From NCBI GenBank assembly GCA_017792445.1, contig CP051232.1:1550001-1614000 (forward strand): a stretch of 64,000 nucleotides of DNA, given 5' to 3'. The notes beneath the pieces were generated by a model. The model was not told the origin of the DNA. It ran no database searches and saw nothing but the letters and a program-made list of their open reading frames with translations. The stretch is from Maritimibacter sp. Lineage in GTDB: Bacteria > Pseudomonadota > Alphaproteobacteria > Rhodobacterales > Rhodobacteraceae. Position 1 is the first letter of the stretch. Each line of letters begins with the position of its first letter. Shown one piece after another: positions 2,319-58,845 of this stretch. The translations under genes were made by a program, and so were the position numbers.

Positions 2319-3812
2319 ATGAGAGCTATCGCAATCTCTGCCGTCGCGCTTGCCGCGGCGACGGCGGCCAATGCCCAGAATATCGTTCAAATGGACAGCG
2401 AGTGGTACGCCGCTGGCCAGGAGGCCATTCAGGCCCAGATCGAAAAGCTGATGAACGAGAACAACGCCAAGAACGTGATCCTGATGGTCGCGGACGGCAA
2501 CGGCGTCGGCACCAACTATGCCACGCGCCTGTTCGTCGGCCAGATGGAAGGCGGTCTGGGCGAGGATCACGTCCTGCCCTACGAAACGCCCGACTTCTAC
2601 TCGGCGCTGGTCAAGACCTACAACATCAACGCCCAGACCCCGGACTCTGCTCCGACCGCTGGCGCGATGAACACCGGCGTGAAGCAGCGCTTCAACCTGA
2701 TCAACCTTGGCGGCGACGCGATCCACGACGATTGCTCGACCGTTGAAGGCAACGAACTGACGCTGTTCTCGGAAATCGTCACCGGGATGGGCAAGTCGGT
2801 CGGCATCGTCTCGACCGCGCGCCTGACCCACGCGACGCCCGCCGCCGTCTATTCGAAGACCGCGAACCGCAACTGGGAAGACGCCGTCCCCGAGGGCTGC
2901 ACTGCCCAGAAGGACATCGCCAGCCAGCTGATCGATGCCATGGAAAGCGGCCTGATCGATTTCGCCATGGGCGGTGGCGGTCGCTACTTCCTGCCCGACG
3001 GCACCGAGATGGGTGGCCTTGCCGGTCGTCGCGCCGATGGCACCAACCTGATCGAGATGGCGGAAGGCTTCGGCGCTTCCTTCGTCACCGACCAGGCGGG
3101 CTTTGACGGTCTGGATCTGTCGGCCGACGCGCCGATCCTCGGTCTCTACGAAAACAGCCACATGATGTACGAGGCCGACCGCGCCGACGAGCCGTCGCTG
3201 GCCGAAATGACCGCTGCGGCGATCGAGTACCTGTCGAAGAACGAAGACGGCTACTTCCTCGAAGTCGAAGCGGGTCGCGTCGACCACGGCAACCACGCCG
3301 GCAACGCCTATCGCGCCCTGATGGACGGCAAGGCGTTCGTCGATGCCGTGGCCCTTGCCGACGAGATGACCGATGACGAAGACACCCTGATCATCGTCAC
3401 CGCCGACCACGAGCACGCCATCGCGTTCAACGGCTATTGCGGACGTGGCTCGCCGATCACCGGCCTGTGCTACGACGTTGCCCAAACCGGTATCGAGCAC
3501 TCGGACGAGCCGCTGACCGCCGCCGACGGCAAGCCCTACACCGTCATCGGCTACCTGAACGGCTCTGGTTCGGTTCTGACCGAGCAGGCCGACGGCACCT
3601 TCGCCGCGCCGGAAGGCCGCGCCGAGGTGACGAACGAGGAAGCGATGGACATCGACTATATCCAGCAGGCGATGATCCCGATGTCTTCGGAAACCCACTC
3701 GGGCGAAGACGTTGCCGTCTACGCCAAGGGTCCGTGGGCGCATCTCTTCGACGGCACCATCGAGCAGAACGTGATCTTCCACGTGATGCTGCATGCCGTG
3801 AACGCCGAGTAA
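2319..3812 (+). CDS. phoA: Alkaline phosphatase (PhoA family), exported
   Basis: A 497-residue alkaline phosphatase. It has a Sec signal peptide (residues 1 to about 20, ending ANAQ), a metal-ligand Asp in MVADGNG (about 59), a nucleophile Ser110 in PDSAPTAGAMNTG, and the later metal-site motifs VDHGNHAGN and ITADHEHA. The ATG at 2319 is supported by GGGAG eight bases upstream; the upstream in-frame extension overlaps the divergent LysR gene and is not coding-like. The enzyme should release phosphate from phosphomonoesters in the periplasm and need Zn and Mg. A weak Pho box lies upstream and a GC hairpin follows. Next downstream is a putative ABC module and then a phytase-like esterase, consistent with a phosphate-acquisition neighbourhood. 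Confidence 0.93.
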   Translation: MRAIAISAVALAAATAANAQNIVQMDSEWYAAGQEAIQAQIEKLMNENNAKNVILMVADGNGVGTNYATRLFVGQMEGGLGEDHVLPYETPDFYSALVKTYNINAQTPDSAPTAGAMNTGVKQRFNLINLGGDAIHDDCSTVEGNELTLFSEIVTGMGKSVGIVSTARLTHATPAAVYSKTANRNWEDAVPEGCTAQKDIASQLIDAMESGLIDFAMGGGGRYFLPDGTEMGGLAGRRADGTNLIEMAEGFGASFVTDQAGFDGLDLSADAPILGLYENSHMMYEADRADEPSLAEMTAAAIEYLSKNEDGYFLEVEAGRVDHGNHAGNAYRALMDGKAFVDAVALADEMTDDEDTLIIVTADHEHAIAFNGYCGRGSPITGLCYDVAQTGIEHSDEPLTAADGKPYTVIGYLNGSGSVLTEQADGTFAAPEGRAEVTNEEAMDIDYIQQAMIPMSSETHSGEDVAVYAKGPWAHLFDGTIEQNVIFHVMLHAVNAE

Positions 3813-3833
3813 GGTTCGCCTTCACGAACGTTG

Positions 3834-3858
3834 AAGGGGCCCCTGACGCGGGCCCCTT
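3834..3858 (+). terminator. Hairpin after alkaline phosphatase
   Basis: A perfect 9-bp stem (AAGGGGCCC / GGGCCCCTT) with a 7-base loop starts 21 bases after the stop codon. The T run after it is short (TTCTG), so termination may be partial and allow some read-through into the next operon. Confidence 0.6.
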
Positions 3859-3914
3859 CTGCCGTTAATCTGACGGCACGTTTCCCGACCGACTCGATGC
3901 ACTCGGAGGATCCG

Positions 3915-4346
3915 ATGATTTCCCGCCGCACCCTGCTGACTTCCGCCGCCGCAGCGATGCCGATGGCCGCCGCCCCGTCGCTTGCCGCAACCGAGGGCCC
4001 GCTGAAACTGCGCGAGCTTTACAACAAGGACCGCAGCTTTTCCGATCTCGCGCTGTCGCTGGAAGGCCAGCGCCTGACCGTCGAAGGCTACATGGCGCCG
4101 CCGCTGAAGGCGGACAGCCAGTTCTTCGTCCTGACCAAGATCCCCATGTCCGTCTGCCCCTTCTGCGAGACGGAAGCGGAGTGGCCGGACGACATCCTTG
4201 CCATCTACACCAAGCGAACGCTCGACGTGATCCCGTTCAACGTAAAGATCGAGACGCGCGGCGTGCTGGAGCTTGGCAGCTTCAAGGACCCCGACACCGG
4301 CTTTCTCAGCCGCGTCCGTCTTTCCGACGCCACCTACGCGCGGTAA
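3915..4346 (+). CDS. Tat-exported DUF3299-like periplasmic protein, ABC module partner
   Basis: A 143-residue protein starting at the second of two nearby ATGs, directly after CGGAGGA. SRRTLLTS followed by an alanine-rich stretch is a twin-arginine signal ending near SLAA. The mature part contains CPFCETEAEWP, a Cys-x-x-Cys motif that I associate with DUF3299-type proteins. It may bind metal or be redox active. Ten bases downstream starts a LolD-like ATPase and then an FtsX-like permease, so the three genes form one operon. Function is unproven. From memory, similar sets occur in zinc-regulated loci of Vibrio, which would fit a neighbour of a zinc-dependent phosphatase. Confidence 0.72.
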   Translation: MISRRTLLTSAAAAMPMAAAPSLAATEGPLKLRELYNKDRSFSDLALSLEGQRLTVEGYMAPPLKADSQFFVLTKIPMSVCPFCETEAEWPDDILAIYTKRTLDVIPFNVKIETRGVLELGSFKDPDTGFLSRVRLSDATYAR

Positions 4347-4355
4347 GCAAGCTCC

Positions 4356-5039
4356 ATGACCCTGCCCCTAAGCGTGCGCGGCCTGTCCGTGCCCAACCCG
4401 CGCGGCCGCGCGATCCTGACCGTCGACGAACTGGACATCCCCGCGGGGTCGCTGGTGGGTGTTCGGGGGCCGTCGGGCGCGGGCAAGTCCACGCTGCTGT
4501 ACGCGCTGGCCGGTCTGTGGTCCGGCGCGAAGGGGGCGGTGCGCTGGGGCGAAACCGAGATACTTGCACTGTCCGACGCGCGGCGAACCGCGTTTCGCGC
4601 CGATCATTTCGGGATGATCTTTCAGGATTTCCTGCTGTTCGAGGAACTGTCGGCCGCCGGCAATGCCGGGCTGGTCAGCCTGTTCCGCCGTCGCCGCGAC
4701 CGCGCGGGCGTAACGAAACGCGCGCGTCAGGGGCTGGCGCGTCTTGGCCTGACCGACACGCCCCGCGCCGTCGCCAGTTTCTCGGGCGGCGAACGTCAGC
4801 GCGTCGCGGTCGCCCGCGCGCTGGCGCATGACCCGCACGTCCTGCTGGCCGACGAACCCACCGCCAGCCTGCACCGCGAGGCGGCGGACGCGCTGATCGA
4901 CGACATGGTGAAACTGGTCCGCGACAGCGGCAAGACGCTGATCGCGGTCAGCCACGATCTTGCCCTGCTGGACCGGATGGATCGCGTGGTTTCGGTCATC
5001 GACGGGCGGGTCGATTGCGACGTCGAGGTGCGCGCATGA
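4356..5039 (+). CDS. ABC transporter ATP-binding protein, LolD/MacB type
   Basis: A 227-residue ATPase with Walker A GPSGAGKST (about residue 40), Q-loop IFQDF, signature FSGGERQRVAVARAL, Walker B VLLADEPTA and H-loop SHD. This spacing is typical of ATPases that drive FtsX/MacB-type mechanotransmission permeases, such as LolD and HrtA. Its stop codon overlaps the permease start as ATGA, which implies translational coupling. Together with the DUF3299-like periplasmic protein it forms a three-component module. The transported or extracted substrate is unknown. The clear choices are a metal or heme system, or lipoprotein/lipid handling. Confidence 0.9.
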   Translation: MTLPLSVRGLSVPNPRGRAILTVDELDIPAGSLVGVRGPSGAGKSTLLYALAGLWSGAKGAVRWGETEILALSDARRTAFRADHFGMIFQDFLLFEELSAAGNAGLVSLFRRRRDRAGVTKRARQGLARLGLTDTPRAVASFSGGERQRVAVARALAHDPHVLLADEPTASLHREAADALIDDMVKLVRDSGKTLIAVSHDLALLDRMDRVVSVIDGRVDCDVEVRA

Positions 5040-6352
5040 TCCGGGATGGCTGGGACGGTTTGCCGGTTCTGACGCAAGAGCTGATCATCTGTGGCGCGCT
5101 GCTGCTGCCGCTGGTGGTCATCGCGGCGCTTCTCACCCGTGGCTATGCGCCGTTCCGCCTGACCCGCGCCATCCTGCGCCGGTTCCTTTGGGCGAACGTC
5201 ATGTTCGTTCTGCTGATTGCCGTTTCGGTCGGCATGGGCATCGGCCTGATCGCGCAGGAGCGCGGACTGCGGCAGGGCATGGCGCATGCCGCGGACAAGT
5301 TCGACATGGTGGTGTCCGCACCGGGCAGCGAGTTGACGATGATGCTGGCCGCCGTGTTCCTGCAGCCGTCGAACGTCGGGTTGCTGGACGGCTACGCCTA
5401 TAACGAGATCGCCGAGCACGAGAACGTCGAGATCGCCGCGCCCATCGCCTTTGGCGACAGCTTTGGCGACGCGCCGGTGATCGGAACGACGGCAGAGTTC
5501 GTGACCTATCTGACCGACGGCGCGCTTGAAGGCCGGCTTTGGGAAGCCACCGACGAGGCCGTGGCGGGCGCTGCGGTCGGACTTGCCGTAGGCGACAGCT
5601 TCACCCCGTCGCACGGTATCGGTGACAGCGCCGAGGAGCACGGCCACGACGGGGTTGGCTTTCGCGTGGTCGGACAGATGCCGCGCACCGGCACGCCTTG
5701 GGACCGTGCGATCCTGATCCCGGTCGAAGCCGTGTGGGAAGTCCATGGTCTTGCCAACGGCCACGCGCCAGAGGCGGGCGACCGGATCGGTCCGCCCTTC
5801 GACGCCAAGTTTTTCCCCGGCACACCGGCCGTGATCGTCCGCGCCTCTGCGCTGTGGGCCAACTATGCCCTGCGCAACGAATTCACCCGCGACAGCGAGA
5901 TGATGGCGTTCTTCCCCGGAAGCGTCTTGGCCAACCTGTACCGCATCATGGGCGACGTGCGGCAGGCGATGTCGCTGATGTCCATCGTCACGCAGATCCT
6001 GGTCGCGGCCAGCGTGCTGCTGGGGCTGTTCATCCTGACCCGGCTGTTCCAGCGACAGGTCGCGATGCTGCGCGCGCTTGGCGCACCGCGGCGGTTCGTG
6101 ATGGCGGTGGTCTGGCTGTATGGCGCGACACTGCTGACAGTCGGAACGCTGCTGGGCGTGGCCTTCGGCTTTGCCGCCGCCGCCGCGCTGTCGCGGATCG
6201 TCACGCAGCGGACCGACATCCTGGTCACGGCGTCGCTGGGATGGAGTGAGGTGCATCTTGCGCTGGCCTTCCTGTCGGCGACCTGCGTGCTTGCCCTGAT
6301 ACCCGCGCTGGCACTGCTGCGGCAGCCGATCGTGGCCAATCTGAGGTCCTGA
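5036..6352 (+). CDS. FtsX-like ABC permease
   Basis: A 438-residue membrane protein. It has transmembrane helices near residues 15-35 and 50-70, a periplasmic domain of roughly 220 residues, then three helices in the C-terminal FtsX domain (about 310-435) with the coupling motif RALGAPRRF. The periplasmic part contains a His/Glu-rich stretch (AEEHGHDG, about residue 200) and HGLANGHAPE. These could bind metal, though that is only suggestive. The ATG at 5036 overlaps the ATPase stop. The gene ends about 30 bases before the Pho box array of the next gene, so it is the last gene of its operon. Confidence 0.88.
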   Translation: MIRDGWDGLPVLTQELIICGALLLPLVVIAALLTRGYAPFRLTRAILRRFLWANVMFVLLIAVSVGMGIGLIAQERGLRQGMAHAADKFDMVVSAPGSELTMMLAAVFLQPSNVGLLDGYAYNEIAEHENVEIAAPIAFGDSFGDAPVIGTTAEFVTYLTDGALEGRLWEATDEAVAGAAVGLAVGDSFTPSHGIGDSAEEHGHDGVGFRVVGQMPRTGTPWDRAILIPVEAVWEVHGLANGHAPEAGDRIGPPFDAKFFPGTPAVIVRASALWANYALRNEFTRDSEMMAFFPGSVLANLYRIMGDVRQAMSLMSIVTQILVAASVLLGLFILTRLFQRQVAMLRALGAPRRFVMAVVWLYGATLLTVGTLLGVAFGFAAAAALSRIVTQRTDILVTASLGWSEVHLALAFLSATCVLALIPALALLRQPIVANLRS

Positions 6353-6379
6353 CAGCCTTCGGCCGCAACCGTATTGCCA

Positions 6380-6408
6380 CTGTCATACAGCTGTCACCCC
6401 GCTGTCAT
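6380..6408 (+). promoter_or_regulatory. Pho box array (three 11-bp direct repeats)
   Basis: CTGTCAT (6380), CTGTCAC (6391) and CTGTCAT (6402) occur at exact 11-bp spacing, matching the PhoB box of tandem CTGTCA(T/C)-N4 units and adding a third unit. The array ends 48 bp before the start codon of the phytase-like gene. This arrangement should give PhoB-dependent activation under phosphate starvation. Confidence 0.85.
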
Positions 6409-6456
6409 CTCGCGGCGCTAGCCCGGCCCGGCATATTGCCAATAAGGGGACAATCC

Positions 6457-8616
6457 ATGCTTAGCAGACTGCTCCTTGCAGCCTCCTCGCTCGCGCTGAT
6501 CGCGGGCGGCGCCGAGGCTCAGGTCTTCAACCGCATCGCCAGCTACCCGGTGTCCGAGAACTCGGGCGCCGATGCCGACACCGAAACCTCGCCCGAGATC
6601 ATCGCGGCGACCGAGGACGGCATGACGCTGGTCTACTCGGACAGCCCGCTGGGCGTCATCGGCATGATCGACATCACCGACCCCGCCGCGCCGAAGGGCA
6701 AGGGCGTGATCGAGGTGGACGGCGAGCCGACCGCGGTTTCCGTCATCGGCTCGATCGCCTTCGCCGGGGTGAACACCTCGGAAAGCTACACCGATCCTTC
6801 GGGCAAGATGATCTCGATCGACACCGCGACCGGCGAGATCACCGGCGAATGCGTGCTGGCGGGCCAGCCCGACTCGACCGCGCCCGCGAAGGACGGATCC
6901 TTTGTCGTGATCGCCATCGAGAACGAGCGTGATGAAGACCTTGGCGACGGCGGCCTGCCGCAGATGCCCGCCGGTGCGGTGCAAATCGTTCCCGTCGCCG
7001 ATGGCGCGATGAACTGCGACGGCATCATCACCGTGGACGTGACCGGCATCGCCGACATCGCCCCGGAAGATCCCGAGCCCGAATTCGTCGACGTGAACGA
7101 GGCCGGCCAGATCGCCGTGACGATGCAGGAAAACAACCACATCGTCATCATCAACTCGGACGGCACCATCGCCAGCCACTTCTCTGCCGGTGCGGTCGAC
7201 CTGGAAGGCATCGACACCGAAGAGGAAGGCGCGCTGGTCTTCACCGACAGCCAGCCGGGCCGCCTGCGCGAGCCCGACGCGGTTCAGTGGCTGGACAACG
7301 ACCGCATCGTCATCGCCAACGAAGGCGACTGGAACGGCGGCGCGCGCGGCTTCACCATCTTCAACAAGGATGGCACCGAGCTGTACGAGAATTACACCGG
7401 CATCGAGTACGAAGCCGTGATGGCGGGCCACTATCCGGAAGACCGGTCCGGCAACAAGGGCGTCGAGCCCGAGGGGATGGAAGTCGGCTTCTTCGGCGAC
7501 GACACCTATATTTTCCTGCTGCTGGAACGCGCTTCGCTGGTCGGCGTCTACAAGGACACCGGCGCCGATCCCGAGTTCATCCAGCTTCTGCCGTCGGGCA
7601 TCGGCCCGGAAGGCGCCTATGCGATCCCGTCGCGTGGCCTGCTGGTCACCGCGAACGAGACCGACCTTGGCCCCGATGGCGGCGTGCGTGCGCACGTGAT
7701 GCTGTACGAACTGGGGGACGGCCCCGCCGCCTATCCGCAGATCAAGTCGACCATGGACGGTGACACCCCGATCGGCTGGGGCGCGCTGTCGGGCCTTGCC
7801 GCCGACCCGTCCGAAGCCGGCAAACTGTACGCCGTGTCGGACAGCTTCTACGGCATGCAGCCGTCGATCTTCACCATCGACGCAACGCAGACCCCGGCGC
7901 TGATCACCGAAAAGACGGTCATCACCCGCGAAGGCGTTCCGGCGCAGGGCTTCGACCTTGAGGGCGTGTTCGCCAACGAGGACGGCAGCTTCTACGTGGC
8001 CTCCGAGGGCCGTCTGGACCGTGGCATCCTGCACGCGATCTATCACATCGCCGACGATGGCGAGATCGAGGAAGTGATCCCCTTCCCGAAAGAGATCATG
8101 GCCGTGGAACGCCGCTGGGCCGCCGAAGGCGTGACCCGTATCGGCGACGTTCTGTGGGTCGCGATCCAGCGTGGCTTCGACGACGACCCCGCGAACCAGG
8201 TGAAACTGCTGTCCTACGATCTGGAAGCGAAGGAATGGGGCGGCGTCGCCTACCCGACCGAACCTGTCGAAAGCGGCTGGGTCGGCCTGTCGGACATCAC
8301 CTATGCCGGTGGCGACGTGGTCTACATCATCGAGCGCGACAACCAGATCGGTGCGAATGCCGCGATCAAGGCGCTGTACTCGGTGCCGCTGTCGGATCTC
8401 GAGCCGGTGGCGCTGACCGAGGAACTTCCGGTCGTGACCAAGACGCTGGTGCACGACTTCCTGCCGGACCTGCAGGCGCTGAACGGTTTTGTCGTCGACA
8501 AGATCGAGGGCTTCACCATCGACGCGGACGGCAACGCCTATGCCGCCACCGACAATGACGGTGTCGACGACAGCTCTGGCGAGACGCTGTTCTTCAAGGT
8601 CGACATGGATATGTAA
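6457..8616 (+). CDS. Secreted esterase-like phytase-family protein
   Basis: A 719-residue exported protein with a signal peptide (residues 1 to about 23, ending AEA). The start at 6457 follows AAGGGGA by 7 bases. The first half looks like a beta-propeller of the choice-of-anchor-I type, with repeated strands such as VTMQENNHIVIIN and LVFTDSQPGRLREPDAVQW. The second half (about 400-719) matches the esterase-like activity of phytase domain, with acidic Ca-binding-looking segments (DADGNAYAATDNDGVDDSSGE). It probably releases phosphate or cleaves phosphoesters outside the cytoplasm. The triple Pho box upstream and a strong terminator downstream make it a single-gene Pho transcript. Exact substrate is unknown. 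Confidence 0.85.
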   Translation: MLSRLLLAASSLALIAGGAEAQVFNRIASYPVSENSGADADTETSPEIIAATEDGMTLVYSDSPLGVIGMIDITDPAAPKGKGVIEVDGEPTAVSVIGSIAFAGVNTSESYTDPSGKMISIDTATGEITGECVLAGQPDSTAPAKDGSFVVIAIENERDEDLGDGGLPQMPAGAVQIVPVADGAMNCDGIITVDVTGIADIAPEDPEPEFVDVNEAGQIAVTMQENNHIVIINSDGTIASHFSAGAVDLEGIDTEEEGALVFTDSQPGRLREPDAVQWLDNDRIVIANEGDWNGGARGFTIFNKDGTELYENYTGIEYEAVMAGHYPEDRSGNKGVEPEGMEVGFFGDDTYIFLLLERASLVGVYKDTGADPEFIQLLPSGIGPEGAYAIPSRGLLVTANETDLGPDGGVRAHVMLYELGDGPAAYPQIKSTMDGDTPIGWGALSGLAADPSEAGKLYAVSDSFYGMQPSIFTIDATQTPALITEKTVITREGVPAQGFDLEGVFANEDGSFYVASEGRLDRGILHAIYHIADDGEIEEVIPFPKEIMAVERRWAAEGVTRIGDVLWVAIQRGFDDDPANQVKLLSYDLEAKEWGGVAYPTEPVESGWVGLSDITYAGGDVVYIIERDNQIGANAAIKALYSVPLSDLEPVALTEELPVVTKTLVHDFLPDLQALNGFVVDKIEGFTIDADGNAYAATDNDGVDDSSGETLFFKVDMDM

Positions 8617-33972: not shown

Positions 33973-35113
<1,141 letters not shown>

Positions 35114-35139: not shown

Positions 35140-37272
35140 TCACAGCGTGCAGGACACGCAGCCTTCCACCTCGGTGCCTTCCAGCGCGGCCTGCCGCAGG
35201 CGGATGTAGTAGATCGTCTTGATCCCCTTCTTCCACGCATAGATCTGGGCGCGGTTGATATCGCGGGTGGTGGCCTCGGCGGGGAAGAACAGGGTCAGCG
35301 ACAGGCCCTGATCCACGTGCCGGGTGGCGGCGGCGTAGGTGTCGATGATCGCTTCCGGCCCGATCTCATAGGCATCGCGATAGTATTCCAGGTTCTCGTT
35401 CGTCATGAACGGCGCGGGGTAATAGACCCGGCCGATCTTGCCCTCTTTCCGGATCTCGACCTTCGCCGTGATCGGATGGATCGAGGAGGTGGCGTAGTTG
35501 ATATAGCTGATCGACCCGGTCGGCGGCACGGCCTGAAGGTTACGGTTGTAGATCCCGTGTTCCATCACCGCGTCGCGCAGGGCGGCCCAGTCGTCGCGGG
35601 TCGGAACAGTCACGCCGGCGGTCTCGAACAGCTCTTTCACGCGGTCGGTTTCAGGCAGCCAGTCCTGCTCGACATAGTCAGCGAAGAAGCTTCCATCGGC
35701 ATAGGTCGAGGTCTCGAAGCCTTTGAACTTTTGACCTTTTTCCTTCGCCAGCGCATTCGACGCCCGCAAGGCGTGGTACAGCACGGTGCAGAAGTAGATG
35801 TTGGTGAAATCCACCCCTTCCGCGCTGCCGTAATGGATCCGTTCCCGCGCCAGATAGCCGTGCAGGTTCATCTGCCCCAGCCCGATGGCGTGGCTTTCGT
35901 CGTTGCCCTTGCGGATCGACGGCACCGAGTCGATGGCCGACATCTCGGACACCGCGTTCAGCGCGCGGATCGCGGTTTCGACGGACGCGCCAAGGTCGCC
36001 GCCATCCATCGCGCGGGCGATGTTCATCGAGCCGAGGTTGCACGAGATGTCCGTGCCCATCGCCGAGTACGACAGGTCGTCGTTGAACTCGGACGCCTCG
36101 TTCACCTGCAGGATCTCGGAACACAGGTTCGACATGGCGATGCGGCCCGCGATGGGGTTCGCCTTGTTCACCGTGTCCTCGAACATGATGTAGGGATAAC
36201 CGCTTTCGAACTGGATCTCGGCGATCGTCTGGAAGAAGGCGCGCGCGTTGATCTTTTTCTTGCGGATCTTCGGGTTGTCGACCATCTCGGCGTATTTCTC
36301 GGTCACCGAGATATCCGAGAAGGGCTTGCCGTAGACCTTTTCGACGTCGTGCGGCGAGAACAGGTACATATCCTCGTTCTTCTTCGCCAGCTCGAAGGTC
36401 ACGTCCGGGATCACCACGCCAAGCGACAGGGTCTTGATGCGGATCTTCTCGTCCGCGTTCTCGCGCTTGGTGTCGAGGAAGCGCAGGATGTCGGGGTGGT
36501 GGGCGTTGAGGTAGACCGCGCCAGCGCCCTGACGGGCCCCAAGCTGGTTGGCGTAGCTGAAGGAATCCTCCAGCAGCTTCATCACCGGGATGACGCCCGA
36601 CGACTGGTTCTCGATCCCCTTGATGGGGGCGCCATGCTCGCGAATGTTGGTCAGCATCAGGGCCACGCCGCCGCCGCGCTTGGACAGCTGCAGCGCCGAG
36701 TTGATGCCGCGTCCGATGCTTTCCATGTTGTCTTCCAGCCGCAGCAGGAAGCACGACACGAACTCGCCCCGCGCCTTTTTGCCGGCGTTCAGAAAGGTCG
36801 GGGTCGCGGGCTGGAAGCGGCCGTCGAGGATTTCCTCCATCAGCCGCATCGCCAGCTTCTCGTCGCCGCGAGCCAGCGTGAGCGCGTTCATCACCACGCG
36901 GTCTTCGTAGCGCTCAAGGAAGCGTTTCCCGTCCCGCGTCTTCAGCGTGTACGAGGTGTAGTACTTGAACGCGCCAAGGAAGGTCGGGAACCGGAACTTG
37001 CGGGCATAGGCGGCGTCCCAGATCGCGCGCTGGAAGTTCTTGGAATACTGGTCCAGCACCTCGGGCTCGTAATAGCCCTCGTCCACCAGATACCCCAGCT
37101 TCTCGTCCAGCGAGTGGAAGAACACGGTGTTCTGGTTGACGTGTTGCAGGAAGTACTGCCGCGCCGCCATGCGGTCGGCTTCGAACTGGATGCGGCCCTC
37201 GGTGTCGTAGAGGTTCAGCATCGCGTTCAGCGCGTGGTAGTCAAGCGAAGCGGTCGCGGCGTTGTCCAGCAT
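35140..37272 (-). CDS. nrdE: Class Ib ribonucleotide reductase alpha subunit
   Basis: A 710-residue catalytic subunit. Seen are the first active-site Cys in [19 protein letters not shown], the Asn/Cys/Glu region with [11 protein letters not shown] and [12 protein letters not shown], paired Tyr near the end ([13 protein letters not shown]), and a C-terminal CVSC redox pair that NrdH reduces. There is no N-terminal ATP-cone typical of long NrdA. It reduces ribonucleoside diphosphates without cobalamin. The start at 37272 has GAGGACC upstream. It follows a MetE-like gene across 55 bp with a hairpin. Confidence 0.95.
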
Positions 37273-37295: not shown

Positions 37296-37319
37296 CGGGC
37301 CCGGAACGGTCCGGGCCCG
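37296..37319 (-). other. Intercistronic hairpin between metE-like gene and nrdE
   Basis: A perfect 10-bp stem (CGGGCCCGGA / TCCGGGCCCG) with a 4-base loop lies between the two genes, without a T run. It may be a processing or stability element rather than a terminator. Confidence 0.6.
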
Positions 37320-37327
37320 GTGTTGTG

Positions 37328-38428
37328 TCAGGCTTCGCCCCAGACGTCCTGGGCGACTTTCACGACCAGCTCCAGCTTGCGGCGCTGATCGTCCTCGGTG
37401 ACCTTGTTGCCTTCCTCGGTAGAGGCGAATCCGCACTGAGGCGCGATCCCAAGCTGGTCCATGTCCACGAATTTCGAGGCGGCTTCAAGCTGCCGCTTGA
37501 TGTCGTCGATGTTCTCGAGCTCCGGGGTCTTCGTCGTGATGAAACCCGGCATGACGCGCTTGGTGCCCTTGGGCAGCAGGCCAAGGGGTTCCAGCCCGCC
37601 GGCACGCTCGCTGTCGTACTCCATGAAATACACATCGACGCTGGTGTGGTTGAAGATCGCATCGGCCGCGGCGTCGTAGCCGCCCGTCGCCACGAAGGTC
37701 GACTGGAAGTTGCCGCGGCACATGTGCATGCCGATCACCATGTCTTCCGGACGGTCCTTGATCGCCTCTTCCAGCATCCACGCGTAGCGCTGGATCATCC
37801 AGTCGGGGTCCTGCCCCATCGAGCGGCGGATCTCTCGCTGCTTCTCGTCGCCGAGGTAGGCGAAGAAGATGTCGTCCAGCTGCAGATAGCGGCAGCCAGC
37901 GTCATAGAATGCCTGCACGGCCTTCTTGTAGGCTGCCGCGATGTCGGCGGTGAACAGGTCCTGATCGGCGTAAGGCGCATGGTGGTTGTGGTCCGGCGTC
38001 ACGCGGAAATGCACCGCCGACGGGCCGGGGATCGAGATCTTCGGGCAGACCTTGGTGTTGGCGGCCACGAACTTGAAGTGGTCCAGCATCGGATGGTCGG
38101 CGGGGAAATCCAGCGCCTTGTCGATGGTCGGCGCAAGGCTGACGGTGGCGCCCTTGAAGCCCAGCGCATCGCCGCCGGTCTCGATGATGTCGAGGCCGGT
38201 CAGACCGTCCATGAAGTCATAGTGCCAGAAGGCGCGGCGCGCCTCGCCATCGGTGACGACCTTCAGGCCCACGTCTTCCTGCATCTTGATCAGCGCGGGG
38301 ATCTCGCTGTCTTCGATCTGCTTCAGCTCGGCTCCCTTTACGCCGGCCTTGCGCGCGGCGGCGACGGGTGCGGGGCGCAGCAGGCTGCCGACGTGGTCGG
38401 CACGGAACGGAGGGCGGAAATCGGTCAT
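37328..38428 (-). CDS. Cobalamin-independent methionine synthase-like protein (MetE C-terminal type)
   Basis: A 366-residue protein corresponding to the catalytic half of MetE, as in YxjG/YxjH proteins: [12 protein letters not shown] at the N-terminus, [24 protein letters not shown], and Zn-site residues in IGMHMCRGN (His/Cys) and APQCGFAST (Cys). It lacks the N-terminal duplicated domain, so the folate or methyl donor may differ from full MetE. The start at 38428 is chosen because MTDFRPPFR matches family N-termini. It sits inside the nrd operon, downstream of a cobalamin riboswitch, so it should be made when B12 is scarce. Confidence 0.88.
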
Positions 38429-38477: not shown

Positions 38478-38891
38478 TCAGGCGGCGGGGCGGAGGCTGT
38501 CCCCCATCCGGTCCAGTCCGGACCGGATGCGGGCAATATCGGTGTCGGTCCCGGCAAGCTCGAAGCGGTAAAGCACCGGAACGCCGCATTTCGCGGCGAT
38601 CACGTCACCCGCGCGGGCGAAGGTGGCGCCGAAGTTGCGGTTGCCGCCCGCGATCACGCCGCGCAGCAGGGCCCGGGTCGCGGAGTCGTTCAGCAGGCGG
38701 ATCACCTGCTTCGGAACCGCGCCCCGGCCCTCGCCGTCGGCATAGGTCGGGCAGATCAGGACAAAGGGCGCGTCGACCACCGGCATCGGGTCGGACGGGC
38801 TGACCGGAACGCGGGCTGCGGGCAGCCCAAGGCGTTCGATCAGCCGCGCCGTGTTCCCGGAGCGCGAGGAATAGTAGACGAGCCCGGGCAT
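38478..38891 (-). CDS. nrdI: NrdI flavodoxin-like protein
   Basis: A 137-residue protein starting [20 protein letters not shown], the flavin-phosphate loop of Nrd[18 protein letters not shown] and [20 protein letters not shown] follow, both characteristic. NrdI delivers the oxidant for assembling the Mn2-Tyr cofactor of NrdF. It starts 4 bases after the nrdH stop. Its presence is the main reason for calling the reductase class Ib. Confidence 0.95.
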
Positions 38892-38895
38892 GTCT

Positions 38896-39117
38896 TCAGG
38901 ACAGCCGGCCGATCATGTCGGGACGGAAACCGGCCCAGTGATCCTCGCCCGCGACGACGACGGGCGCCTGCCGATAGCCAAGACCCTGCACCATCTCCAT
39001 CGCATCGGCGTCCTCGGTCAGGTCTACGATGTCGAAATCGATGCCGCGGGCCTCGAGAGCGCGGGTGGTGGCGGTGCACTGCACGCAGGCGGGTTTGGAA
39101 TACACGGTGATGGTCAT
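38896..39117 (-). CDS. nrdH: NrdH glutaredoxin-like electron donor
   Basis: A 73-residue thioredoxin-fold protein with redox pair Cys11-Val-Gln-Cys14 ([15 protein letters not shown]) and the NrdH ending [20 protein letters not shown]. It reduces NrdE. It is the first gene after the cobalamin riboswitch, about 115 bases downstream of the riboswitch 3' end. Confidence 0.95.
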
Positions 39118-39227
39118 CTGCTCTGTCCCTTCTGGTCTGTTTGGTGCGAACCGAAGGGGACACGAAAGCGGGCGCTTCGCGCCTGCCTACGCACCCGGGC
39201 CCTCCGCCGCGGTCGTCGTTTTTTGTC

Positions 39228-39400
39228 GCCTTGGCAGGTCTCCTGACTCCGCGGCTCGGACGCCTTGACCCGCCTTCCCGGTGTTGCCTGACACCAGTGG
39301 TTTCGGGCCTTGGCTCGCCGCTGACAGTTGCGGGGGCAGTACCGGATTTGCACCGGTTTCCCTTTTCACCCGCGAGTCACCCCGCGAGCACCAAAGCAAC
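39228..39400 (-). promoter_or_regulatory. Cobalamin (B12) riboswitch
   Basis: The minus strand shows the conserved cobalamin aptamer elements in order: GGGAAACCGGTGCAAATCCG, then ACTGCCCCCGCAACTGT, AACCACTGG (the B12-box partner), GGGAAGGCG, and GCGGAGTCAGGAGACCTGCC. It precedes nrdH, so adenosylcobalamin should repress the whole nrdHI-metE-like-nrdEF operon. Ends are approximate. Confidence 0.95.
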
Positions 39401-39403
39401 ACC

Positions 39404-39433
39404 ATATTGGGCCGACGGCCAGAGTGGTGTCAA
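39404..39433 (-). promoter_or_regulatory. Sigma70-type promoter of the nrd riboswitch operon
   Basis: On the minus strand TTGACA (39433-39428), an 18-base spacer and CAATAT (39409-39404) place transcription start at about 39397, just before the riboswitch. Confidence 0.6.
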
Positions 39434-39499
39434 CATATAGGCGGGGGCACAAGAGAAGAAATCTCAACGTGCCGTCGGGGGTGTGTCTTTCGGACCGCG

Positions 39500-40351
39500 T
39501 CAGCTTTTGGCTTCGATCCGCTTCATCGAAGCAAGCCGCGTCATCCGGACGCGACGCATGAAGGCCAGCAGGAACATGGCCGACAGCAGCAGGATGACGG
39601 TCGGCGCCGGGGCGCTGTCGAGGAAGAAGCTAAGATAGGCGCCGCCCAGCATAGCGATCAGACAGACGGCGACGGCGGTGACCAGCATCCGTCCGAAACT
39701 GCGGACCAGCAGGAATGCGATGGCCCCCGGCGCGATCAGCAGGCCGACTGCGAGAATCAGGCCGGTCGAGGTAAGCGTCGCGACGATGGTCAGCGACAGG
39801 ATCGTCAGCAGGCCATAGTGCAGCAGGTTCACCCGAAGCCCGCTGGCCTGCGCCTGCGCCGGGTCGAAGGAATGCAGCAGCAGGTCCTTCCATTTCAGCA
39901 GCAGCACCGCCGTCACGCCAAGCGAGATCAGCCCGGCGGTCCACAGGTCCTGCGGCCCTACGCCAAGCATGTTGCCGTACAGAACGTGATCGAGGTGCTG
40001 GTTGGTGTGGATCGAGGTGTAAAGGATCAGCCCAACGCCGAACATGCCAGAGAACACGACACCCATGACGGTGTCCTGCTTCACACGGCTGTTCTCTGAC
40101 AGATAGCCGGTGGCGACCGCGCAGGTCATGCCCGCCGCGAAAGCGCCGATGATCAGGGGAATACCGGTGATCCACGCCAACACGATACCCGGCAGGATCG
40201 CATGGCTGATCGCGTCGCCCATCAGCGCCCAGCCCTTGAGGACAAGAAAGCAAGACAGCAGCGCCGTCGGCACCGCGACGATGGCGGCGATCAGGAACGC
40301 GTTCTGCATGAACGGGAACTGGAACGGCAGCAGCAGGGTGTCGAGGGTCAT
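39500..40351 (-). CDS. sitD: Mn/Fe ABC transporter permease SitD
   Basis: A 283-residue ABC-3 family permease with about eight helices: LVLKGWALMGDAISHAILPG near the start (the conserved cytoplasmic loop) and LTSTGLILAVGLLIAPGAIA toward the end. The ATG overlaps the sitC stop (ATGA). It pairs with SitC as a heterodimer. After its stop at 39500 lies the divergent nrd promoter region. Confidence 0.92.
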   Translation of the reverse strand: MTLDTLLLPFQFPFMQNAFLIAAIVAVPTALLSCFLVLKGWALMGDAISHAILPGIVLAWITGIPLIIGAFAAGMTCAVATGYLSENSRVKQDTVMGVVFSGMFGVGLILYTSIHTNQHLDHVLYGNMLGVGPQDLWTAGLISLGVTAVLLLKWKDLLLHSFDPAQAQASGLRVNLLHYGLLTILSLTIVATLTSTGLILAVGLLIAPGAIAFLLVRSFGRMLVTAVAVCLIAMLGGAYLSFFLDSAPAPTVILLLSAMFLLAFMRRVRMTRLASMKRIEAKS

Positions 40352-41232
40352 TCCGCAGGCTCCGGTTTGGCGACGGGCGCAGTCGGCTCAAGCGCCTCTG
40401 CCGCAAGCCGGCGGGTCGCCAGCAGGCCGTGTTTCGGCGCGAAGACGAAGGCTGCAAGGAACAACGCCGTCTGCAGCGCCACGATGACGCCGCCGGTGGC
40501 GCCGTCGAGGAAATAGCTGATGTAGGCGCCCACGAAACTGGTCAGCGTGCCGATTGCGACCGACAGCAGGATCAGGCGCGGGAAGCGGTCGCACAGCAGG
40601 TACGCCGTCGCGCCAGGTGTCACCACCATCGCGATGACAAGAAAGGCCCCGACCGTCTGCATCGCGGCCACCACCGCCGCCGACAACAGCACGAAGAACA
40701 CCGCCTTCAGCAGGCCCGGGCGCAATCCGATGGATTTGGCGTGGTTCTCGTCGAAGAAGGTGACCATCAGGTCCTTCCACTTCGCCAGCAGGATCGCCAG
40801 CGACACGAAGCCGATGATCGCCAGTTGCAGCGTGTCCTCGGGCGTGATGGCAAGGATGTTGCCCATCGTTATGGTCTGGATCGACACCGACATCGGATTG
40901 ATCGAGACAAGGAACAGGCCCAGCCCGAAGAACGAGGTGAAGATCAGCCCGATGATCACGTCGACCTTCAGCCCCGACCGGTCGCTGAGGAACAGCATCG
41001 CCCCCGCCGCCAGCCCGCCCGCGATGAACGCGCCCAGCGCGAAAGGCAGGCCGAGGATATAGGCCCCCGCCACCCCCGGAACGACCGAATGCGAAAGCGC
41101 GTCGCCGATCAGCGACCAGCCTTTCAGCATCAGGTAGGCCGACAAAAAGGCGCAGACCCCGCCGACCAGCGCCGAAACCCACATGGCGTTGGTCATGTAG
41201 CCATAGGTGAACGGCTGCAGCAGCAGTTCCAT
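40348..41232 (-). CDS. sitC: Mn/Fe ABC transporter permease SitC
   Basis: A 294-residue ABC-3 permease, paralogous to SitD, with LMLKGWSLIGDALSHSVVPG and MQTVGAFLVIAMVVTPGATA. The start is the ATG at 41232 (TGATG with the sitB stop); a GTG one codon earlier is possible. A proline/glutamate-rich tail (APVAKPEPAE) is present. Tightly coupled with sitB and sitD. Confidence 0.92.
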   Translation of the reverse strand: MELLLQPFTYGYMTNAMWVSALVGGVCAFLSAYLMLKGWSLIGDALSHSVVPGVAGAYILGLPFALGAFIAGGLAAGAMLFLSDRSGLKVDVIIGLIFTSFFGLGLFLVSINPMSVSIQTITMGNILAITPEDTLQLAIIGFVSLAILLAKWKDLMVTFFDENHAKSIGLRPGLLKAVFFVLLSAAVVAAMQTVGAFLVIAMVVTPGATAYLLCDRFPRLILLSVAIGTLTSFVGAYISYFLDGATGGVIVALQTALFLAAFVFAPKHGLLATRRLAAEALEPTAPVAKPEPAE

Positions 41233-42137
41233 CACGAGTCGTCTCCGCGCACCCGCGTCCGGTCGCCATAGTGAACCAGCGGCCGTTCGTCGTCGGTGAA
41301 GATCGTCAGTTCGCGCGGGTCGTCGTCGTGGTCGTCGTGCAGGTCGGCACCGCCCAGCGTGAAGTGGCGCAGCACACCGCCGAAGGCCAGCTCAAGGTTC
41401 TCGCGGGTAAAGGTCGTCTCGGTCGGGCCGTGGGCTAGGACCGTCCCCTTCACCAGAACGGTACGGTCGCAGAACTCGGGCACCGAACCAAGGTTGTGGG
41501 TCGAGACCAGCATCACCCGGCCCTCGTCCTTCAATTCGCGCAGCAGGGCGACGATCTGCTCTTCGGTCTTCACGTCGACGCCGGTAAAGGGCTCGTCCAG
41601 CAGGATCACCTGCCCCTCTTGCGCCAGCGCCCGTGCAAGGAACACGCGCTTGCGCTGGCCGCCGGACAGTTCGCCGATCTGGCGGTGGCGGTAGTCCTGC
41701 ATGTTCACCCGCTTCAACGCGGCATCCACGGCCTCGTGATCCGCCGCGCGTGGGCGGCGCAGGAACCCCATGTGGCCGTAGCGGCCCATCATCACCACGT
41801 CCTCGACCAGCACGGGGAAGCCCCAGTCGACCTCTTCCGCTTGCGGCACATAGGCGACGAGATTCTCGCGCAGCGCCTGCTTCACGGTGCGGCCCAGCAA
41901 TCGGATCTCGCCAGCGGCGGCCGGGACGAAGCCCATGATCGCCTTGAACAGGGTCGACTTGCCCGCGCCGTTGACCCCCACCAGCGCCGTGACCGTGCCG
42001 CGCGGGATCTGGAAGCTGGCGTTGTGCAGCGCGGTATGCCCGTTGCGATAGGTGACGGTCACGTCTCGTGCCAGGATGCCGCCGCCGGGACCGTCTTCCG
42101 TCGTGAGTGCGTCGAGTGCCGGGCTGGTGTCGAGCAT
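41232..42137 (-). CDS. sitB: Mn/Fe ABC transporter ATP-binding protein SitB
   Basis: A 301-residue ATPase with Walker [11 protein letters not shown]-loop YVPQAEE, signature [15 protein letters not shown], Walker [11 protein letters not shown] and H-loop STHN. A C-terminal extension contains a His/Asp cluster ([13 protein letters not shown]), which could bind metal and is not needed for ATPase function. The start at 42137 follows AAAGGA by about 7 bases. A strong hairpin separates it from sitA. Confidence 0.93.
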
Positions 42138-42186
42138 CGGATGTCCTTTCGGCAGGTGTCCCTGCATCTTTCCTTAGAATAGCATG

Positions 42187-42213
42187 GCCCTGCGGCCCGG
42201 AAAGCCGCAGGGC
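42187..42213 (-). other. Intercistronic hairpin between sitA and sitB
   Basis: A perfect 10-bp stem (GCCCTGCGGC / GCCGCAGGGC) with a 7-base loop lies just after the sitA stop and has no T run. Such hairpins often protect the binding-protein mRNA so it is made in excess over the transporter subunits. Confidence 0.65.
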
Positions 42214-42235
42214 AGGTCTTGTCGTCGCACCGCAA

Positions 42236-43150
42236 TCAGTTCGTGGTCGGCACGAGCCCTTCCGCAACGGTTTCCGAGGTCACGCGCAGCAGGTCGAGGT
42301 AGGTCGGCACCGGGCCGTCAGCCTCGGACAGCGAGTCGACATACAGAACCCCGCCGTAAGCAGCGCCGGTTTCGCGCGCGACCTGCTCGGCCGGGGCGGT
42401 GTTGACGGTGCTTTCGCAGAAGACCACGGGCACGTCGTGTTCCCGCACCCCGTCGATCACGGCACGCACCTGTTGCGGCGTGCCGGTCTGGTCGGCGTTC
42501 ATCGGCCAGAGATACAGCTCTTGCATGCCGAAGTCGCGGGCGAGGTACGAGAATGCGCCTTCACAGGTCACAAGCCAGCGCTGGCCCTCGGGGATCTCGG
42601 CGATGCGGTCACGCAAAGGCTCGATAGTCTCGCGGATCTGGGATTTGTAGGCTTCGCCATTCGCCGCGTAGATCTCGGCATTGTCGGGATCCTGCTCCGA
42701 GAAAGCGGCGACGATGTTGTCGATGTAGACCATCGCGTTGTCGAGCCCCATCCATGCGTGCGGGTTCGACTGCCCTTCGTAGGCGCCCGATGCGATCGGG
42801 ATCGCGTCGATGCCTTCGGTCAGCGTGACCGAGGGGACGTCTCCGAGGTTGGCGAGGAACTGTTCGAACCACAGTTCCAGGTTCAGGCCATTCCACAGGA
42901 TCAGGTCGGCATCGTGGGCACGGACGATATCGCGGGGCGTCGGTTCGTAGCCGTGGATCTCTGCCCCCGGCTTGGTGACGGAAACCACCTCGGCGGCGTC
43001 TCCGGCCACGTTCTGAGCCATGTCGGCCAGCACGGTGAAAGTGGTCACGACCTTCATCGGTTCGCCATCGCGGGCGTAAGCGGCGGGCGCCGCCAGCGCA
43101 AGCGCGGCAGCCGCAGCCGCAGCAAGAAGGTTGGTCGTCAGGGCGCGCAT
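42236..43150 (-). CDS. sitA: Mn/Fe ABC transporter substrate-binding protein SitA
   Basis: A 304-residue cluster A-I (ZnuA-like) binding protein with a signal peptide (about 1-26, ending AYA). Metal ligands are His in PGAEIHGYEPTP, His in SNPHAWMGLDN, Glu in TCEGAFSYLARDFGMQ and a late Asp in LYVDSLSE. It lacks the long His-rich loop of ZnuA, which favours manganese or iron over zinc. First gene of sitABCD. Confidence 0.94.
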   Translation of the reverse strand: MRALTTNLLAAAAAAALALAAPAAYARDGEPMKVVTTFTVLADMAQNVAGDAAEVVSVTKPGAEIHGYEPTPRDIVRAHDADLILWNGLNLELWFEQFLANLGDVPSVTLTEGIDAIPIASGAYEGQSNPHAWMGLDNAMVYIDNIVAAFSEQDPDNAEIYAANGEAYKSQIRETIEPLRDRIAEIPEGQRWLVTCEGAFSYLARDFGMQELYLWPMNADQTGTPQQVRAVIDGVREHDVPVVFCESTVNTAPAEQVARETGAAYGGVLYVDSLSEADGPVPTYLDLLRVTSETVAEGLVPTTN

Positions 43151-58708: not shown

Positions 58709-58749
58709 GGCATTCCTCCTCTGTGACGGGCGGGTCAGGATAGAGGCTG

Positions 58750-58845
58750 AGCCGTTCACCTTCCCTCCGCCGGTATGAGCCGGTTCAGGTTCAACGGGTC
58801 CGCTGTCGCGTCTCAGCCCGAATGGGCACCCCGAGGTACGCTCAG
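58750..58845 (-). promoter_or_regulatory. TPP (THI-box) riboswitch
   Basis: The minus strand shows the aptamer core: CTCGGGGTGCCC, GGGCTGAGA, ACCCGTTGAACCTGAACCGG and CATACCGGCGGAGGGAAGGT. It lies 45 bases upstream of thiB. Thiamine pyrophosphate should repress the transporter operon, probably by hiding the ribosome site. Ends approximate. Confidence 0.96.

Follow-up and report, generated by a model that had tools for sequence, protein, structure and literature searches.

This locus raises the question of whether one cobalamin riboswitch can govern B12-free replacements for two B12-dependent processes at once, the making of deoxyribonucleotides and that of methionine. The stretch of DNA analysed, referred to below as the window, covers 64,000 nucleotides (G000:C1:1550001-1614000) of the 4.68 Mb, single-contig genome of Maritimibacter sp. 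The original prediction, which placed a B12-independent ribonucleotide reductase and a MetE-like methionine synthase under the same switch, was confirmed as a real observation and supported as a correct reading. We put the probability of a double B12 bypass, with the operon under a single cobalamin riboswitch, at roughly two in three. Cobalamin riboswitches over single B12-free isozymes are known, and so is this kind of control; what is new is that these targets are combined and that one of them is a core MetE-like gene. The features are listed below, all on the minus strand and in the order of that strand.

39500-43150, minus: manganese/metal ABC transporter (substrate-binding protein, ATPase and two permeases), directly upstream, from model matches
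39404-39433, minus: promoter-like element inferred by sequence inspection, TTGACA (39433-39428), 18-nt spacer, CAATAT (39409-39404)
39216-39410, minus: cobalamin riboswitch aptamer, complete (RF00174)
39195-39212, minus: short hairpin whose GGAGG(G) loop may pair with the CCCCCGC loop of the aptamer, from the predicted fold
39125-39161, minus: predicted hairpin burying the nrdH ribosome-binding site AAGGGA (39131-39126)
38896-39117, minus: nrdH, glutaredoxin-like redoxin of the class Ib reductase (TIGR02194, 103 bits, cut-off 85.75)
38478-38891, minus: nrdI, flavodoxin of class Ib reductase assembly (TIGR00333, 147 bits, cut-off 74.65)
37328-38428, minus: metE-like gene for a core-type methyltransferase of 366 aa, over cut-off with both NF005085 and PF01717, its ATG start being preferred to a TTG further upstream
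37296-37319, minus: palindrome CGGGCCCGGACCGTTCCGGGCCCG in the gap between metE-like and nrdE, with no T run
35140-37272, minus: nrdE, class Ib ribonucleotide reductase large subunit (TIGR04170, 1223.5 bits, cut-off 750)
33973-34950, minus: nrdF, class Ib small subunit (TIGR04171, 480 bits, cut-off 355)

A cmscan of the window returned the RF00174 match at 39216-39410 on the minus strand with 130.8 bits (E 1.3e-32) against a gathering score of 31.5 bits, and the match spanned positions 1-189 of the 189 of the model with no truncation. The aptamer is therefore complete, as had been claimed. The span originally proposed, 39228-39433, stood only in part: it took in the TTGACA, but it began 23 nt upstream of the match and omitted the last 12 nt. 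Covariation was evaluated on an alignment of 20 riboswitches, most of them over nrdH, from which the structure itself had been taken. The score was 0.350 compared with 0.117 after shuffling (none of 500 shuffles as high), paired cells amounted to 92.7% against 79.9% in the shuffled alignments, and slid versions of the structure scored 0.058-0.097.

The promoter-like TTGACA-18-CAATAT element abuts the aptamer. A TTGAC was present at about the same distance in all 24 riboswitches over nrdH and in 7 of the 15 other cobalamin riboswitches examined; the generic promoter scan of the window did not report the element. We also observed two CWATAT-like boxes about 31 bp apart in the nrd riboswitch promoters (39404-39440 in the window). 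A looser comparison of the boxes gave 31 bp as the best offset in 11 of 24, and a strict pattern search for tandem NrdR-like boxes matched 3 of 24, never as a tandem pair. The paired boxes resemble, as we assume, tandem NrdR boxes, and give a hint that such boxes may occur in these promoters.

In all 21 of the Rhodobacterales nrd leaders examined, which are related to each other, the 45 nt that follow the aptamer contain the motif GGNGGG, compared with 6.5% of random 45-mers from the same loci. Apart from one mismatch, this motif complements the CCCCCGC of the aptamer when compared by eye, and the pairing of GGAGG(G) with CCCCCGC is presumably a kissing loop, as in known cobalamin riboswitches. 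Further downstream, the predicted fold pairs the nrdH ribosome-binding site of the window with an arm lying upstream of it, the unpaired probability of its Shine-Dalgarno sequence being 0.016 compared with 0.51 in shuffled leaders (0 of 60 as low). The effect was modest over 17 leaders (mean 0.38 versus 0.53 shuffled, Wilcoxon p 0.006), in which the Shine-Dalgarno sequence was located by a basic rule likely to have overlooked it in a few cases; 13 of the 17 fell below their own shuffled mean, with six at or below 0.05, and four did not. That the signal is weak or missing at several loci counts against the double bypass. An intrinsic terminator was considered as the expression platform and discarded, as the terminator scan lists none on the minus strand from the aptamer to nrdH. 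Since the nrdH Shine-Dalgarno sequence is predicted to be buried and the terminator scan is empty between aptamer and nrdH, translational control is the better guess and the most likely mode.

In the mechanism that we propose, the aptamer would bind cobalamin when this is plentiful and lower the expression of the whole nrdHI-metE-like-nrdEF unit, most likely through a hidden nrdH ribosome-binding site together with limited downstream expression, and the class II NrdJ and MetH enzymes would do the work. Under cobalamin scarcity the unit would be made, class Ib NrdEF with NrdH and NrdI supplying deoxyribonucleotides and the MetE-like zinc methyltransferase supplying methionine with no need of cobalamin.

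The gene order behind the riboswitch is the one that had been read, nrdH-nrdI-metE-like-nrdE-nrdF on the strand of the aptamer, and each gene was assigned by curated models over cut-off. The class Ib set NrdE, NrdF, NrdI and NrdH is complete, all four models scoring over cut-off. The B12-dependent NrdJ and MetH predicted to lie elsewhere in the genome were both recovered by the genome search. Two class II reductases were found, of 1230 aa (NF005736, 2230 bits) and 763 aa (TIGR02504, 596 bits); the latter, at G000:C1:2176529, was at one point taken for a class Ia NrdA, an assignment rejected on the TIGR02504 score, which is over cut-off, and on its TSCPD domain. Class Ib was the only class I large subunit among the matches listed (TIGR04170 and NF005736), with no class Ia large subunit among the two of six TIGR04170 matches listed (lowest listed 47.8 bits) or among all six NF005736 matches, which fall in three loci. 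MetH is split over two neighbouring genes; with NF007024 (cut-off 1497) the larger scores 1586 bits and the smaller 510, as expected of a part. The N-terminal domain of canonical MetE, PF08267, had no match in the source genome, the same search being positive in 10 of 14 control genomes. Since two NrdJ proteins and a two-gene MetH are present and no canonical MetE was found by this search, the operon could bypass both B12-dependent steps.

PF01717 recovered three genes in the source genome, namely the operon copy, a paralog and a distant copy. The paralog, at 1672956, is 67% identical to the operon protein, has no riboswitch in 18 kb and lies after a GntR-like gene (by eye) and a TRAP transporter (L065:5136-10072, solute-binding gene NF037995). 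In the third protein (L066:8536-9651), encoded after an aldolase-like gene (by eye), the zinc ligand E665 is replaced by S, and a different function is probable. At least three cobalamin riboswitches were counted in the genome, 150 of 370 first-look candidates having been scored for RF00174. The second precedes CbtA, followed by ORFs read by eye as cobW and cobN, and the third precedes an ORF for which Pfam and, at 1e-20, NCBIfam gave no match, and then a nickel-type ABC solute-binding protein (NF045468, below cut-off); CbtA and a metal-type ABC transporter are targets as expected of a B12 regulon. The ORF under the best-scoring cobalamin riboswitch of the genome (L067:6802-7653) is likewise without a match in Pfam or, at 1e-20, in NCBIfam.

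We then considered the MetE-like protein itself. It belongs to the NF005085/PRK06520 subfamily (417 bits, cut-off 313), PF01717 is its sole Pfam match, and it matches PDB 1ypx, titled putative vitamin-B12 independent methionine synthase family protein, at E 1e-98, so that its fold follows from sequence. It is 95% identical to the corresponding protein of Maritimibacter sp. NAT7, and NF005085 proteins over cut-off are also found in Bacillus subtilis and Lactococcus lactis. The operon protein does not qualify as a canonical MetE, as it lacks the N-terminal domain PF08267 and scores 24.2 bits with TIGR01371 against a cut-off of 929.95. In the broad sense it is a core methionine synthase, consisting of the catalytic half alone with the zinc ligands H, C, E and C and the homocysteine residues S, E and D. 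Aligned to E. coli MetE, it keeps S433, E484, D599, H641, C643, E665 and C726, the zinc and homocysteine residues named in the available sections of PMC7857596. All seven were kept in 64 of 64 family rows, a count that leaves out the partial rows L131, L133 and L136 and the outgroups L135, L137, L138 and L139, and these outgroups keep all seven as well. The MesD structure 3rpd gave only a weak match (E 1.1e-5). Within the literature found, which is not a full survey, no study measured methionine synthesis without cobalamin by the NF005085 subfamily. Since the protein differs in this way from canonical MetE and the main text of the MesA-D paper (PMC7857596) contains none of the terms YxjG, YxjH and 1YPX, its function is one that we infer: it would make methionine with no need of cobalamin.

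The strongest rival explanation concerns the methyl donor. According to it, the MetE-like protein is B12-free and its donor is not a methyl-folate but, for instance, a methylated compound taken up by the cell, perhaps together with a partner protein. This explanation is compatible with a double bypass and leaves the regulatory part unchanged, and we regard it as a serious contender at somewhat less than even odds. It would account for the missing N-terminal MetE domain and for the TRAP-type genes present in 17 of 71 MetE-like neighbourhoods, which adjoin the gene in several of them, including the genome's own paralog and the riboswitch-bearing L127, and could hint at the methyl donor. The nrd operon, however, holds neither a TRAP gene nor a partner gene, and MesX (PF08908) had no match in the two genomes searched, a result tempered by the equal silence of the control genomes.

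The 71 neighbourhoods were obtained by a pattern search for related MetE-like loci in named genomes, besides the window, and were examined with R1, a covariance model derived from 20 riboswitches; those of the window and of G118 are among these and match it by construction. With R1, a MetE-like gene lies under a cobalamin riboswitch in nine of the 71 loci, the window not counted. The in-operon layout nrdHI-metE-EF was found in Maritimibacter NAT7 (L071), Pseudooceanicola nanhaiensis (L077, not independent of G421) and UBA996 (L081, not independent of G118). In the Rhizobiaceae, Rhizobium oryziradicis (L084) and Agrobacterium albertimagni (L089) have nrdHIEF-metE under the riboswitch, and the MetE-like gene stands alone under one in Sinirhodobacter populi (L127), Pseudooceanicola HF7 (L104), P. 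sediminis (L107) and Roseinatronobacter (L075), an nrd riboswitch and a MetE-like riboswitch lying back to back in L104. The ambiguous L076, with a riboswitch, a small ORF, two metH genes and then the MetE-like gene, was left out of the nine.

The remaining 62 MetE-like genes were not seen under a riboswitch within flanks of at most 6 kb; among them, L076 and L129 have a riboswitch elsewhere in the locus and L101 has only 17 nt upstream of the gene. These 62 genes, and the genome's own paralog, which was not seen under a riboswitch either, count against the double bypass, and the protein family taken together is therefore not one of B12-limitation enzymes. Class Ib was present in 13 of 29 genomes checked (drawn from 31 of the 71 loci, with the three in-operon loci and the genomes of L106 and L107 left out), and the MetE-like gene was linked to it in three, L084, L089 and L104 (a divergent neighbour), and unlinked in ten. 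In five of these ten the riboswitch lies over the nrd operon, and in one, S. populi, over the MetE-like gene. With three linked genomes against ten unlinked, and 62 of 71 genes with no riboswitch seen, the coupling is a recurrent option and not a rule.

Within the taxonomic family, class Ib NrdE was over cut-off in 17 of 149 genomes, all 17 of which also have NrdJ over cut-off. A cobalamin riboswitch lies just upstream of nrdH in 14 of the 17 class Ib genera, and R1 also found none at the nrd loci of the other three. The metE-like gene is inside the nrd operon in two of these 17 genera, in agreement with its having been called the unusual part. NF005085 is rare in the order, occurring in 12 of 390 genomes at E up to 1e-60; only two of the 12 have class Ib, and in both the metE-like gene is in the operon (cf. 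L180). A rule that the two are always linked where both occur was rejected, being true for the two carriers of the order and false more widely.

This patchy distribution, and the many relatives that are unlinked or lack a riboswitch, could be taken to mean that a mobile MetE-like gene landed in the operon as a passenger, with no meaning attached to its B12 control. We consider this improbable, as Rhodobacterales and Rhizobiaceae show three layouts with such genes behind a cobalamin riboswitch, of which two lie in nrd operons, and the active-site residues are conserved. The protein tree also speaks against a passenger; its 71 rows are 69 loci, the window and the paralog (L110 and L140, with no MetE-like ORF kept, were dropped). 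The riboswitch label needs seven changes on this tree, or six if L076 is left out, and a nearly equal label, which adds L076 and L129, needs seven compared with 11.3 after shuffling (0 of 500 as low). Such a pattern implies several gains, or gains and losses, of the riboswitch over MetE-like genes, as opposed to a single origin kept by all.

A double bypass also draws on a parallel arrangement in Rhizobium sp. SL86 (L191, L184), where a riboswitch (2820-3030), canonical metE (3136-5487), a thioesterase-like ORF, a second riboswitch (6332-6546) and nrdHIEF follow one another, the encoded MetE being 53% identical to that of E. coli. As in the window, both bypass functions lie side by side under cobalamin riboswitches; SL86 uses two riboswitches and a canonical MetE, whereas one riboswitch and a core enzyme are used here. 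The N-domain of canonical MetE had no match in seven of the eight searched genomes with a riboswitch over the MetE-like gene (G000, G118, G421, G495, G496, G497, G500 and G501), G118, one of the seven, being 84% complete. Taken with the SL86 locus, this supports, without proving, that the MetE-like gene fills the place of canonical MetE. The eighth genome, S. populi (G495), has a canonical MetE besides its riboswitch-bearing MetE-like gene, which counts against the double bypass. In the SL86 locus (L191:2820-8501), the nrdE match ends at model position 569 of 698, and one TGA was noted.

Co-transcription of the whole nrdH-nrdF unit is suggested by the common strand, by the gap sizes (4, 49, 55 and 189 nt from nrdH to nrdF) and by L077 and L081, where the metE-like stop codon overlaps the nrdE start, which favours one message there. 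The riboswitch might instead govern nrdHI only, with metE-like and nrdEF on a B12-insensitive promoter of their own. The gaps of 49 and 55 nt that flank metE-like in the window leave room for such an arrangement, and the second holds the palindrome, which has a similar counterpart at the same place in L071 and might be a site of partial termination or processing, a point that counts against the double bypass. The stop/start overlap speaks against a separate promoter, as does the scan, which found no promoter-like site in the unit but is insensitive, as it also missed the TTGACA-18-CAATAT element before the aptamer. We therefore judge a separate promoter to be quite unlikely. The 189-nt gap between nrdE and nrdF contains, at 34987-35093 of the window, two imperfect 54-bp repeats with GTGCGCAT-type palindromes.

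Comparison with known systems sets the locus in context. Rodionov and colleagues reportedly described in 2003, by comparative genomics, a cobalamin riboswitch over B12-independent ribonucleotide reductase. Streptomyces nrdABS is under a cobalamin riboswitch, and there, as would be the case here, B12 lowers a reductase that duplicates class II NrdJ; the reductase here is instead the class Ib nrdHIEF, with a methionine gene inserted. YxjH is presumably kin of the operon MetE-like protein. In Lactobacillus paracasei, it is named vitamin-B12 independent methionine synthase and is under a methionine T-box, with higher levels in the absence of methionine, according to the portions of PMC6004538 available; in contrast to the window, the signal there is methionine and not B12, and nrd genes are absent. 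In Caulobacter crescentus, B12 shuts off metE and btuB leader reporters (PMC6538847, available sections), so that the shut-off of a B12-free isozyme proposed here has been shown there by reporters; the Caulobacter target is however MetE and is not joined to a reductase, whereas a core MetE-like gene stands among class Ib reductase genes here. Tandem SAM and cobalamin riboswitches are common before metE, as stated in the text available of PMC9600662. A description of nrd and methionine synthase genes under one cobalamin riboswitch was not found in the accessible portions of the open-licence literature.

The closest biochemical parallel is provided by the core methionine synthases MesA-MesD, which, as far as the available sections of PMC7857596 go, likewise consist of the catalytic half of MetE only and keep the zinc and homocysteine residues; the operon protein differs in belonging to the NF005085/PRK06520 family, as kin of 1ypx. 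That its methyl donor is a corrinoid, as is probably the case for MesA and MesB, and that it hence needs B12, would fit the missing N-terminal half and the use of methylcobalamin by characterised core enzymes in vitro, but is very unlikely, as an enzyme repressed by cobalamin yet needed only without it would be self-defeating, the operon has no corrinoid protein gene, MesD of aerobic bacteria does not require cobalamin (both enzymological points from the same sections of PMC7857596), and the comparable place in SL86 is taken by a canonical MetE.

Core-MetE homologs occur in marine bacteria, and the accessible text of PMC12478193 describes their function in aerobic marine bacteria as doubtful, which counts against a double bypass, and their production only under cobalamin limitation as plausible. 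The riboswitch over MetE-like genes fits the latter suggestion and brings regulatory evidence to the question raised there of whether these homologs function, perhaps only when cobalamin is limiting. A further point against the double bypass comes from Phaeobacter inhibens, in which a mutant in a mes-like gene, possibly kin to the operon gene, still showed a shortened lag phase (PMC12366255, sections available).

One switch appears to cover the replacements for both of the examined steps that depend on B12, the synthesis of deoxyribonucleotides and that of methionine. Should the enzyme work, the B12-free methionine synthases would gain a family, and predictions of B12 dependence would change for marine alphaproteobacteria otherwise scored as reliant on MetH and NrdJ. 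The riboswitch pairings in several relatives make this poorly understood MetE-like family easy to test. A broader proposal, which we advance tentatively and place slightly short of even odds, is that the NF005085 proteins are a fifth, cobalamin-free type of core methionine synthase, recruited repeatedly into cobalamin-riboswitch regulons by several alphaproteobacterial lineages. Paired with the class Ib reductase, to which some relatives add a nearby riboswitch-bearing pair that resembles glycine betaine monooxygenase, they would make up a compact module for B12 independence, in which DNA precursor and methionine metabolism are switched over jointly.

The pair in question was observed at five loci beside nrd or metH genes, where a Rieske oxygenase like glycine betaine monooxygenase has its own cobalamin riboswitch (L062:6394-9017, L077:2282-4907, L057:6603-9250, L060:9274-11883 and L129:122-1670). 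A reductase gene adjoins it in L062, L077, L057 and L060. The oxygenase scored 502 bits with NF058607 in L077 and 499 in L062, below the cut-off of 670, and the L077 reductase matches GbcB below cut-off; the pair may represent a third B12-free replacement. At L062:9049-9787 and L076:1366-2119 a cobalamin riboswitch is followed by an ORF of about 100 aa, alike in both by eye, and then by metH, a position that is odd since MetH needs B12.

Class Ib NrdF uses Mn, and the ABC transporter directly upstream of the riboswitch is a possible source of Mn for NrdF outside the riboswitch unit. Its ATPase scored 464 bits with PRK15056, over cut-off, and the other three proteins match metal-transport families below cut-off; the manganese-type transporter neighbours are the same in L071 and are divergent from nrd in L055. 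Elsewhere in the window, a TPP riboswitch was detected at 58745-58843 on the minus strand with 67.8 bits.
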